From positions 1-47,514 of the IMG/VR virus record IMGVR_UViG_3300046747_000043: a stretch of 47,514 nt of DNA; one strand, written 5' to 3'. This stretch comes from a virus. The stretch's first letter is position 1. Each line of letters opens with the position of its first letter. Made by a program: the position numbers and the translations under genes. The notes under the pieces were generated by a model. The model saw only the letters and a list, made by a program, of their open reading frames with translations. It made no database searches and was not told the origin of the DNA. Positions 2,592-15,984 of the stretch are shown here, piece after piece.

Positions 2592-3282
2592 AAGTCCTCC
2601 AAATCTCAGCGATCTTGCGCAAGTGCGGCTGCATATCGGCTATTTGCATCTGTGACAGTACGGCCCGGCGCATCCGGCCTTTTATGTGGCAAACCTTCAC
2701 GTCCTCATCGAAATTTACCCAGTCGGCATCGCAAGCATTCCATCTTGAACATGGTATTTGGATCACTTTGGCGTCGAACTTGTATTTTTCGAGAACGAAC
2801 CCGAGCGAAGCTTGGTTCATGCCGGCGTATTTGTCTCGCCAGATTTTGTGCTCTTGCGGATCCTCATATAACCGTCGATTAGCTTGGGCCCACAGCGCGA
2901 GAAACTCACGGGCCCTATCGTTAGGTTTGGCATAAACCATACCGCCGTTGATCGGGTATTTTTGACCGTACCGATCGGTTAGTGCGACGTCGAAGTCTTT
3001 CTCGAAAACAGTTGATAGGTCGCCGGTCGCCAGCATATCGCAGTCGGCGAAAACGATAGGTTCGTCAGCGCGGTCCATTTCTTCTTTCCATATTTCGAGC
3101 TTTACGGTGTTCGAGGTAAAGTGCGTATGGCTGACGTTGACCGGAACCTTGGGAGCCGGTATTCGGTGGCTGATGAACTTGGCGTTAGGCATATACCGCG
3201 CTGCCGATTTCTCGAACACGCGAAGCAGCCTGGTATAGTCCATCGTTCCTTCAAAGTCGAACTGCACGGTTATGATCTTCAT
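2572..3282 (-). CDS. GT-A fold glycosyltransferase-like protein
   Basis: The protein (236 aa) resembles nucleotide-sugar transferases of the GT-A fold. Residues around 76-84 read VFADCDMLA, with the metal-binding DxD motif (DCD). A glycine-rich acceptor segment (NGGMVYAK, about residue 112) and a C-terminal HIKGRMR, the His/Lys/Gly element often binding the diphosphate, are present. It probably transfers a sugar from a nucleotide donor to an unknown acceptor, perhaps modified phage DNA or a host surface glycan. The ATG overlaps the upstream TGA. Two methyltransferases downstream support a sugar-modification pathway, which is inference. Confidence 0.7.
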   Translation of the reverse strand: MKIITVQFDFEGTMDYTRLLRVFEKSAARYMPNAKFISHRIPAPKVPVNVSHTHFTSNTVKLEIWKEEMDRADEPIVFADCDMLATGDLSTVFEKDFDVALTDRYGQKYPINGGMVYAKPNDRAREFLALWAQANRRLYEDPQEHKIWRDKYAGMNQASLGFVLEKYKFDAKVIQIPCSRWNACDADWVNFDEDVKVCHIKGRMRRAVLSQMQIADMQPHLRKIAEIWRTYERPGS

Positions 3283-3461
3283 TGTTCTGATTTTCTCTGT
3301 CGCAGTTTAATAATCATTGCATCTGCATAAACAGCAGCCGTTTCGGTATTTTCCTCAATTGCTGCTCCGCGATGGTGGACGCTCATATTGATATTGCTAA
3401 GGATAGCCGCTGCCTGTTCCGACCAAATCTTGTCTTCGTGAGAATCTTTAATCTCGATCAT
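3279..3461 (-). CDS. Small hypothetical protein
   Basis: A 60-aa product. The ATG at 3461 overlaps the TGA of the upstream gene, so the longer open frame upstream is not used. It is acidic at the N-terminus and basic at the C-terminus, likely two helices, with a VHHRGAAIEENTETAA turn. No family recognised. Confidence 0.65.
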   Translation of the reverse strand: MIEIKDSHEDKIWSEQAAAILSNINMSVHHRGAAIEENTETAAVYADAMIIKLRQRKSEQ

Positions 3462-3706
3462 AGTTTCACCCCGAACGGCTCGTTCGTATCCGCAAACCGC
3501 AAAAAACACCACGCGCCATCGCGTTTCATCGACGAGAAGGAACTCGCATGGTTTCCGTCGCGTAGGTCCACGGCCTGTCGCACAAATAGGAACGCGAGTC
3601 CGGTCTTGTCGAACGCGCTAATGGTCGTGACCAAGTGCTGGAATCGAACCGGCCGGCGCATCGCCTGTATTAGTTCGTCGTCGGTAAAGTCTCGGTAGTC
3701 GTCCAC
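3458..3706 (-). CDS. Hypothetical protein, GTG start
   Basis: This 82-aa product starts at a GTG preceded by AGGAGG with 4 nt spacing, inside the end of the upstream gene (37-nt overlap). The first residues (DDYRDFTDDELIQAM) form an acidic amphipathic helix and the rest looks like a small beta domain. Function unknown. The GTG plus ribosome site decided the start over an in-frame codon further upstream. Confidence 0.65.
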   Translation of the reverse strand: MDDYRDFTDDELIQAMRRPVRFQHLVTTISAFDKTGLAFLFVRQAVDLRDGNHASSFSSMKRDGAWCFLRFADTNEPFGVKL

Positions 3707-13699: not shown

Positions 13700-13815
13700 T
13701 AGACATCGCACACAGCAAGCGCAATCAACCACAGGATTTAGTCGCCGGTGTTGTTGTGCCGAACAAACGGCCACCGCTGCCCTTTCACCTTGACCTTATG
13801 GTGTGGGACTTCTCT

Positions 13816-13923
13816 GGAAGCGGCAGGATTCGAACCTGCATGACCGTTTCCGGCCTCGACATTATCTCGATGTTCCCATCGGCGGATTTGATCCCGCTAC
13901 GTCTACCATTTCGCCACACTTCC
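13816..13923 (-). ncRNA. tRNA-Leu-like RNA with aberrant anticodon loop and extra arm
   Basis: A 7-bp acceptor stem (GGAAGTG with CGCTTCC), Leu-type D arm (TGGTAGACG) and a perfect T arm (GCAGG, TTCGAAT, CCTGC) are present. The anticodon region GCGGGATCAAATCCGC leaves a 6-nt loop where a normal CAA loop needs 7. The class II variable arm CGATG-GGAA-CATCG is intact, but about 26 nt with another hairpin (GGCCG-GAAA-CGGTC) lie between it and the T arm. At 108 nt it is too long for a normal tRNA-Leu. It may be a decayed tRNA or a tRNA mimic. Confidence 0.6.
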
Positions 13924-15418: not shown

Positions 15419-15555
15419 AAAGGGGAATATGCGACGTAGGGCTTTTTGGTGCGGGAGCTCTAACCAACTGAGCTACGCCACGCTTTCGCGCAACGGTCGG
15501 AATCGAACCGACGACATCCTGCTTGATTGAAGTAACCTACGTCTGCGCCACCTTT
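15419..15555 (-). ncRNA. Y RNA of YrlA type with permuted tRNA-like module
   Basis: Order on the minus strand: lower stem AAAGG, TGGCGCA, upper stem GACGTAGG (15536-15543), TTACTTC; then a T arm (15496-15512; GTCGG, TTCGATT, CCGAC), an acceptor-like 8-bp stem capped by GAAA (15476-15495), a D arm (15457-15473); then upper stem CCTACGTC (15433-15440), ATATTCC and lower stem CCTTT. The T arm, closed acceptor and D arm order is that of the tRNA-like domain of bacterial YrlA RNAs. It ends about 20 nt before the start of the Ro-like gene. Confidence 0.85.
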
Positions 15556-15571
15556 TTTAATAAAAACATAG

Positions 15572-15627
15572 CCGGGAATTATCGATGTGGTTTTCTTTGC
15601 TTGATGTAACCCACATCTTCGCCACGG
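15572..15627 (-). ncRNA. Minimal Y-like RNA, unit 4
   Basis: Lower stem CCG/CGG, internal loop TGGCGAA opposite ATAATTCC, upper stem GATGTGG (15611-15617) with CCACATC (15584-15590), then TTACATC after the 5' strand and an A-rich loop. It begins about six bases after the tRNA-Lys, so tRNA 3' processing may release it. There is no tRNA-like module. Confidence 0.75.
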
Positions 15628-15631
15628 ACAC

Positions 15632-15704
15632 AGAGCGCTAAGGGATTTGAACCCCTGACCTGCGGATTAAAAATCCGCCGTTCTACCAACTGAACTAAGC
15701 GCCC
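15632..15704 (-). tRNA. tRNA-Lys(TTT)
   Basis: A regular 73-nt tRNA: acceptor GGGCGCT with AGCGCTC (one G-U), D arm GTTCAGTTGGTAGAAC, anticodon arm GCGGA-TTTTTAA-TCCGC giving anticodon TTT, 5-nt variable loop, T arm AGGGG-TTCAAAT-CCCTT. The CCA end is not encoded and the discriminator base is T, unusual for lysine tRNAs. It sits between two Y-like RNAs. Confidence 0.95.
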
Positions 15705-15712
15705 TACAAACA

Positions 15713-15773
15713 ACCGGGAATTAACGGTTAAGGGTGTATTTCCCCAAGAAGTATCCCTAACCAGCGCCACGGT
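15713..15773 (-). ncRNA. Minimal Y-like RNA, unit 3
   Basis: Lower stem ACCG/CGGT, internal loop TGGCGCT opposite TTAATTCC, upper stem GGTTAGGG with CCCTTAACC (one bulge), ATACTTC after the 5' strand, 13-nt loop. It ends eight bases before the tRNA-Lys, whose 5' processing would set its 3' end. Confidence 0.75.
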
Positions 15774-15790
15774 ATCAAAACTAAAAAACA

Positions 15791-15856
15791 TCGGGGAATA
15801 AGCAGAAACGGTTTTTTTTCATTGATGTTAGAAGTAACCGTTTCCAACGCCACCGA
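15791..15856 (-). ncRNA. Minimal Y-like RNA, unit 2
   Basis: Lower stem TCGG (15853-15856) with CCGA (15791-15794), internal loop TGGCGTT opposite TTATTCC, upper stem GAAACGG (15838-15844) with CCGTTTC (15805-15811), extendable by two pairs. TTACTTC follows the 5' strand and the loop ends in a run of eight A residues. It lies four bases after the acceptor of the chimeric RNA. Confidence 0.75.
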
Positions 15857-15860
15857 ACCT

Positions 15861-15984
15861 GAAGGATGCCGGATTCGAACCGGCGCCTCTCAATTAACAG
15901 TTGAAGTAACCAAACTCTGCGCCACGCCGAAGCGGGAAAAATCAAATCTGGCTAACAGCGCTCTAACCGCTAAGCTAATCCTTC
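15861..15984 (-). ncRNA. Chimeric tRNA/Y RNA: Y helix replaces the anticodon arm
   Basis: The outer frame is a tRNA: perfect 7-bp acceptor (GAAGGAT with ATCCTTC), D arm (15960-15975) and perfect T arm (15868-15884). Between D and T arms sits a Y element in permuted order: upper 3' strand CCAGATTT (15944-15951), ATTTTTCC, lower stem CGC/GCG capped by TTCG (15925-15934), TGGCGCA, upper 5' strand GAGTTTGG (15910-15917; three G-U pairs with the 3' strand), TTACTTC. It is the circular permutation of the RNA at 15419-15555. A search program may call it an odd tRNA-Asn (GTT at 15895-15901). Confidence 0.75.

Follow-up and report, generated by a model that had tools for sequence, protein, structure and literature searches.

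A probable Y RNA in tRNA order, circularly permuted relative to YrlA, in phage rsr loci

Introduction

The closest described relative of the RNA reported here is YrlA (RF02553), in which, according to excerpts of PMC8394870, Rsr is held by the stem that the 5' and 3' ends make, DusA and TruB act on the tRNA-like domain, and the RNA links Rsr to PNPase. Here we analyzed the full 47,514 bases of an IMG/VR virus record (IMGVR_UViG_3300046747_000043; the window, that is, the entire stretch of DNA under analysis), and we describe an RNA at positions 15984-15861, on the minus strand, that combines a Y helix with the arms of a tRNA in tRNA order. It lies in an array upstream of rsr, the gene for a Ro60-like protein, together with a YrlA-type RNA at 15555-15419.

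The RNA at 15984-15861 has in common with YrlA a Y helix with a predicted Ro-binding core, a T arm, an acceptor, a D arm and a site beside rsr, but its Y stem carries a tetraloop cap and its acceptor is open, the two forms being one secondary structure cut in different places. The RYPER system of Deinococcus (Rsr-Y RNA-PNPase), in the same excerpts of PMC8394870, is alike in its tether of Rsr and Y RNA, whereas here Rsr is phage-encoded. Compared with tRNA (RF00005), the RNA matches in its 7-bp acceptor, U8/A9, D arm, tRNA-type T loop, discriminator and anticodon-stem base, and CCA is encoded in 6 of 16 relatives, but it holds a Y RNA insert of roughly 60-80 nucleotides in the anticodon arm, and because the insert occupies this arm, the RNA would not be expected to decode. 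Circularly permuted tRNA genes, in the part of PMC3978253 consulted, likewise have reordered tRNA segments with ends elsewhere in the same fold, but they mature to ordinary tRNAs, whereas here both permutations are Y RNAs and it is the collinear one that has unusual ends. We found no description of a tRNA-collinear Y RNA topology in the literature searched, the main Y RNA papers lying outside that search, and provisionally consider the topology new as a variant of Y RNA.

Results

Two circularly permuted RNAs in one array

Read from its 5' end, 15984-15861 consists of acceptor GAAGGAU, U8 A9, D arm, Y 3' strand, CGC-UUCG-GCG, Y 5' strand, T arm and acceptor AUCCUUC; 15555-15419 consists of Y 5' strand, T arm (15512-15496), an acceptor hairpin CGUUGCGC-GAAA-GCGUGGCG (15495-15476), D arm (15473-15457) and Y 3' strand (Table 1). 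The stem made by the 5' and 3' ends is the Y stem in the latter and the acceptor in the former. A preliminary description of this DNA had assigned this anatomy to each of the two RNAs, and it agrees with our arm-by-arm reading and, except for the D arm of 15984-15861, with the predicted folds, which contain the Y stem, T arm, acceptor hairpin and D arm of 15555-15419 (z -1.99; 5/200 shuffles equally stable) and the acceptor, Y helix, UUCG hairpin and T arm of 15984-15861 (z -2.03; 5/200). Besides the adjacent rsr, the Y RNA hallmark of 15984-15861 is a Y stem core like that of the minimal Y RNAs in the array, which we take to resemble the core of vertebrate Y RNAs.

To compare the two RNAs independently of any fold, we aligned one to every rotation of the other, allowing each of 100 shuffles its best rotation as well. 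The best alignment, with a score of 26 and 85 of the 119 aligned bases identical, was obtained at rotation 68, which starts on the G of the GAAA acceptor loop; without rotation the score was 4, and the shuffles had a mean of 2.2 and a maximum of 9. The two RNAs are homologous and related by circular permutation, as had been claimed before. One correction applies: 15419-15555 has the ordinary YrlA topology, and relative to tRNA it is YrlA that is permuted, the second form being tRNA-collinear. Below, "permuted" RNAs are those that are permuted relative to YrlA.

The Rfam YrlA model spans the full length of 15555-15419 with 36 bits (E 1.3e-5), under its curated 69 bits, and has no match to 15984-15861. 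Neither of these tRNA-like Y RNAs is called by ARAGORN or by Rfam at curated cut-offs.

The tRNA-collinear form recurs with covarying helices

Pattern scans of viral and genome contigs, looking for closely spaced Y 3' and Y 5' strands with a T arm after them, returned many YrlA and minimal Y RNAs, along with open-acceptor RNAs, ten of which, including that of the record itself, were chosen by hand, with acceptor pairing as part of the choice. One of these, L002 (loci are designated by L and a number), was retained on account of its arrangement. An early loose classifier, by which 67 of 92 Y cores appeared "open", mostly falsely, was superseded by register-exact reading and a covariance model.

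In each of the ten RNAs, the Y lower stem is closed by its own short hairpin, with the loops UUCG, GGAA, GUCA, GAAA, UACCU, UUCG, AAAUA, AUUC, UUUU and GAAA. The acceptor forms 66 of 70 pairs (mean 34.6 and maximum 57 with shuffled partners; 0/20000), the T arm 49 of 50 (0/20000) and the Y helix 64 of 70 (0/20000), the last count being somewhat favored by taking the best-pairing heptamer as the Y 3' strand. The two closing pairs of the Y stem are made in 20 of 20 cases (1/20000). All 40 D arm pairs are formed as well, but because 482/20000 shuffles do equally well, this pairing is weak evidence. In a MAFFT alignment (A1), which misplaces the Y strand of the record's RNA and of L139 by one or two columns, 88.5% of the cells pair, with a covariation of 0.622 versus 0.239 in shuffled and 0.109-0.178 in slid controls, and RNAalifold recovered nearly the same structure from A1 alone, with double changes in 19 of 27 pairs. 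Compensatory changes occur in the acceptor, T and Y helices. The preliminary description had raised the option of a normal tRNA-Asn with an insertion lacking structure; this option fails, the insert being a predicted Ro-binding Y helix with compensatory pairs.

A covariance model, R1, yielded 14 matches at 78-131 bits in 20 whole records, the next best match scoring 55.3 bits. The open-acceptor form recurs, with covarying helices, in a total of 16 permuted RNAs in 12 records, within the same score range. In the six RNAs outside the R1 training (L147b, L044b, L140b, L009, crAss001 and cr106_1), the acceptor pairs 7/7 without exception; over all 16, it pairs 7/7 in 13, 6/7 in two and 5/7 in one. 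Ordinary 76-nt tRNAs reached 60.3 bits (297 genomes) and tandem-YrlA junctions 72.3 bits (88 sources), and in these 297 genomes, which come from the phylum of the metagenome-assembled genome (MAG) containing L159, that MAG is the only one with a match above 78 bits.

Sixty R1 matches were examined, of which 14 are the permuted RNAs, 10 without a readable T arm were left unjudged, and 36 others scored 45-72 bits. Most acceptors in this last group are sealed with an upstream or downstream neighbor, identifying tandem YrlA junctions or YrlA, and a few are ambiguous. The rejected matches include one in halovirus HGTV-1 (56.4 bits), an annotated intron-containing tRNA that ARAGORN reports as tRNA-Ser with a 36-nt intron, and one in CcrColossus (64.5 bits) that reads as a tandem YrlA junction. 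Separately, the tRNA-Gln and tRNA-Thr annotated upstream of rsr in CcrColossus (L252:673-740) and Xanthomonas phage 10KY502B (L253:1292-1359) overlap YrlA-type RNAs and appear to be misannotated.

Among 16 named rsr phages, two carry a permuted RNA: the well-studied gut phage crAss001 of Bacteroides, with 78.9 bits (MH675552.1, 96453-96596, minus strand), and the uncultured crAss phage cr106_1, with 82.1 bits. The crAss001 RNA was found by BLAST in 24 phage records, with no annotated feature beneath it in any. Downstream of the TROVE gene of crAss001 (L256, about 2940-3480), there are more unannotated Y-core-like sequences, one of them, with a T arm at 3433, a possible divergent relative. At L147:13457-13750 (-), two permuted RNAs lie close together, and a run of 6-8 T follows each acceptor within a few bases, as if it also served as a terminator.

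The Y helix lies within the anticodon arm

The acceptor, D and T arms of 15984-15861 are in tRNA order and spacing. At its curated cut-off, the Rfam tRNA model (RF00005), applied to seven loci, matched four permuted RNAs from position 1 to 71 (crAss001, 46.6 bits; L147a, 45.3; L044b, 45.1; L119b, 44.5), and the three alignments printed place the insert within the anticodon arm. Over the 16 permuted RNAs, with a variable loop of 4 or 5 nt open to real and shuffled sequences alike, all 32 of 32 cells pair at the base of the anticodon stem (27-28 with 42-43; shuffled mean 23.4; 0/20000), and 59 of 80 over the five-pair stem (shuffled mean 42.3, maximum 55; 0/20000). Given the insert position in Rfam and the retention of the basal pairs, the Y helix lies within the anticodon arm, the base of which is retained. 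The earlier view that the Y helix replaces this arm needs refinement, the arm not being wholly replaced. A more general claim, that every Y RNA keeps an anticodon loop, was abandoned, such a hairpin being present in 55 of 175 cores, 33 of these 55 with U in the second place.

N-CCA directly follows the acceptor in 6 of the 16 permuted RNAs (L159, L002, L044a, L140a, L143 and L009), compared with an expectation of 1 in 64 (binomial 1e-7, the lineages not being independent); ordinary tRNAs at the L143 locus often encode CCA. Sealed YrlA loops that begin with N-CCA were seen at L150, L151, L154 and L156 (Bradyrhizobium contigs), L095, L149, L210, L141 and L252, resembling a tRNA whose 3' end has been joined to its 5' end. 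In the region of L201:3835 (+), a YrlA-type RNA has 17 nt between its acceptor strands, and because this gap starts with ACCA, the RNA could be opened by tRNA processing.

Linkage to rsr and distribution

In 11 of the 12 records with a permuted RNA, rsr is present. Among the 80 closest of 339 rsr loci found in the viral collection, a simple regular-expression census detected the Y core in 73 and YrlA in 33, and permuted RNAs (at least 78 bits) were found in 3: the permuted form is rare. The permuted label needs 8 changes on a quick 91-row Rsr tree, at least 2 of them forced, compared with a shuffled mean of 10.5 and 4 of 500 shuffles as low. The form is scattered and weakly clustered on this tree, a pattern that does not establish a single origin and may reflect loss, transfer or repeated origin.

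The rsr array of the record

On the minus strand, 5' to 3', the permuted RNA is followed by two minimal Y RNAs, tRNA-Lys(UUU), a third minimal Y RNA, the YrlA-type RNA and then rsr (Table 1), the product of which has 13 viral relatives. tRNA-Lys(UUU) is a frequent target of anticodon nucleases. Elsewhere, the record encodes portal, terminase, head protease, tail, Erf, NinB and DnaC-like proteins; among named phages, no near relative of its positions 12000-36000 was found. Just downstream of rsr (13815-13923, minus strand) lies a tRNA-Leu-like RNA with the usual long variable arm, followed by an extra GAAA-capped hairpin ahead of the T arm; it scores 38.7 bits with the Rfam tRNA model (fold z -3.52) and was missed by ARAGORN.

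Table 1. Positions of the array members and of the parts of the tRNA-collinear RNA within the window
Feature	Position	Strand	Evidence
rsr, Ro60-like protein, TROVE and von Willebrand A domains, 461 amino acids	14013..15398	-	PF05731 5.7e-15; PHROG 850 1.1e-42
YrlA-type Y RNA, Y stem open, acceptor closed by GAAA	15419..15555	-	RF02553 36 bits, below gathering; rotation test
Minimal Y RNA, no tRNA module, ends approximate	15567..15626	-	Y core and UUCCC 3' strand; fold z -1.17
tRNA-Lys(UUU), canonical, mid-array, without encoded CCA	15631..15705	-	ARAGORN; Rfam tRNA 71.8 bits
Minimal Y RNA, variant core GGGATACTTC, ends approximate	15712..15772	-	core motif; fold z -0.07, not stable versus shuffles
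Minimal Y RNA, ends approximate	15791..15856	-	core motif; fold z -2.67
Permuted (tRNA-collinear) Y-tRNA, tRNA positions 1 to 72; discriminator A = 15860; CCA not encoded	15861..15984	-	anatomy; R1 98.5 bits at 15857-15984; acceptor 7/7
Acceptor 3' strand ATCCTTC	15861..15867	-	pairs 7/7 with 5' strand
T arm GCCGG-TTCGAAT-CCGGC	15868..15884	-	sequence anatomy
Anticodon-like hairpin TTCAA-CTGTTAA-TTGAG, 5 bp, 7-nt loop, GTT at anticodon place	15889..15905	-	sequence; Rfam tRNA alignment (27.4 bits) takes hairpin as anticodon arm
Y 5' strand with conserved Y RNA core TGGCGCAG-AGTTTGG-TTACTTC	15903..15924	-	sequence reading
Hairpin closing Y lower stem, CGC-TTCG-GCG	15925..15934	-	same in L139, different loops in others
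Y helix 3' strand CCAGATT	15945..15951	-	7/7 pairs with 15910-15916
D arm GCTT-AGCGGTTA-GAGC, after T8 A9	15960..15975	-	40/40 D pairs across ten RNAs; missing from single-sequence minimum-energy fold
Acceptor 5' strand GAAGGAT	15978..15984	-	pairs 7/7 with 3' strand

Discussion

We consider it probable that 15984-15861 is a phage-encoded Y RNA that uses a tRNA scaffold and keeps the tRNA order of parts, with the processing, Rsr-tethering role and origin outlined below. The sequence, topology, recurrence, covariation and rsr linkage are direct results of the analysis; transcription, cleavage by RNase P, CCA addition, Rsr binding, function and origin are inferred. The array upstream of rsr is probably one precursor transcript, from which host RNase P would cut ahead of G15984, while trimming would take the 3' end back to A15860, where a host enzyme would add CCA, as for the CCA-less tRNA-Lys of the same phage. 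The phage Rsr would bind the Y helix, which lies within the anticodon arm under a UUCG cap, and the tRNA body, which is not expected to decode, would serve as a tRNA mimic and tether, filling with tRNA-type ends the role that YrlA fills with a sealed acceptor. By analogy with known YrlA, the RNA would offer the same two surfaces, an Rsr-holding stem and a tRNA-like domain, but with the ends of a tRNA. The simplest origin of the permutation would be tandem duplication of a YrlA-like unit with loss of the outer halves, or the reverse. As for transcription, partial text of PMC12282133 reports three highly transcribed regions, suspected Y RNAs, near an Rsr-like gene of Listeria phage CKA15, and the available part of PMC8375218 lists the crAss001 TROVE gene among those expressed within 10 minutes of infection; by analogy with these two phages, phage Rsr regions can be actively transcribed.

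Several observations weigh against this interpretation. In the 66.8-kb record of L143, we found no rsr, and a promoter search gave none that is clear (2 sites versus 0.9 expected). The D arm of 15984-15861 is absent from the predicted single-sequence fold and thus rests on conservation, and the acceptor of L002 forms only 5/7 pairs. With RF00005, 15984-15861 scores 27.4 bits, under the 29-bit cut-off, and in a different register, which takes UUCAA-CUGUUAA-UUGAG as an Asn-like anticodon arm, although such a hairpin is not found in all copies. CCA is not encoded in 15984-15861, and L140a has ACCA although the nine ARAGORN tRNAs at its locus lack CCA. Finally, N-CCA also stands at the loop start of 9/81 sealed YrlA acceptors (2/30 in an earlier, smaller count), above 1 in 64 (6/16 versus 9/81, Fisher 0.016). 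Because sealed loops carry it too, N-CCA may mark tRNA ancestry rather than processing; we read it as a sign that the family as a whole has tRNA ancestry, and processing is plausible.

A more far-reaching version of the same idea, which we regard as possible but doubtful, is that these RNAs form a distinct phage class of Y RNAs matured as tRNAs, with a 5' end made by RNase P, a CCA 3' end and perhaps aminoacylation, such that the Rsr particle would bring a non-decoding tRNA into acceptor-reading pathways; YrlA would then be the end-to-end circular permutation of this class, and the N-CCA of some sealed YrlA loops a fossil of former tRNA ends. It seems unlikely that the RNA is instead a decoy, an Rsr-tethered tRNA shape that competes for or inactivates putative host tRNA-recognizing nucleases or defense factors, with the Y part serving solely for stability or localization. 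Such a role would fit the presence of tRNA-Lys(UUU), a known nuclease target, in the same array and the anticodon-like loops of some copies, but these loops are variable and missing from several others.

That the locus is a working tRNA gene, here tRNA-Asn, with the Y RNA as an intron and the exons joined into a decoding tRNA, we hold to be very improbable. The resemblance of UUCAA-CUGUUAA-UUGAG to an Asn anticodon arm, the full anticodon stem (5/5 pairs) of L044b, L140b, L147b and cr106_1, and the Rfam matches to four relatives as tRNAs with a large insert speak for an intron, but 7 of the 16 copies form just two or three of the five anticodon-stem pairs, the inserts contain the conserved, predicted Ro-binding core next to rsr, a comparable hairpin exists in some minimal Y RNAs (L027), and no RNA ligase was found among those proteins of the record that were searched, a subset of its open reading frames. 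Scarcely credible, in our assessment, is a junction between two neighboring degenerate YrlA copies, or a pseudogene, read as permuted by chance. YrlA copies often lie in tandem, with junctions that reach 72 bits in R1, and the L002 acceptor is poor; yet acceptors at junctions are mostly sealed with partners of their own, whereas 15984-15861 lacks outer halves and has a tetraloop where the spacer would be, along with a 7/7 acceptor, and the form recurs in 12 records with compensatory changes. For the class, this explanation is already refuted.

To our knowledge, there is no obvious answer to the question why YrlA resembles a tRNA with displaced ends. The occurrence of two permutations in one array, and of the tRNA-collinear form in several lineages, suggests a concrete route, tandem duplication. 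The cultured crAss001 carries the class unannotated, and because stranded RNA-seq exists for this phage, according to excerpts of PMC8375218 (a public one-step-growth series, BioSamples SAMN16810643-SAMN16810654), the RNA ends can be checked in existing data. As natural constructs, the two forms allow the contribution of the Y stem to be told apart from that of the ends.
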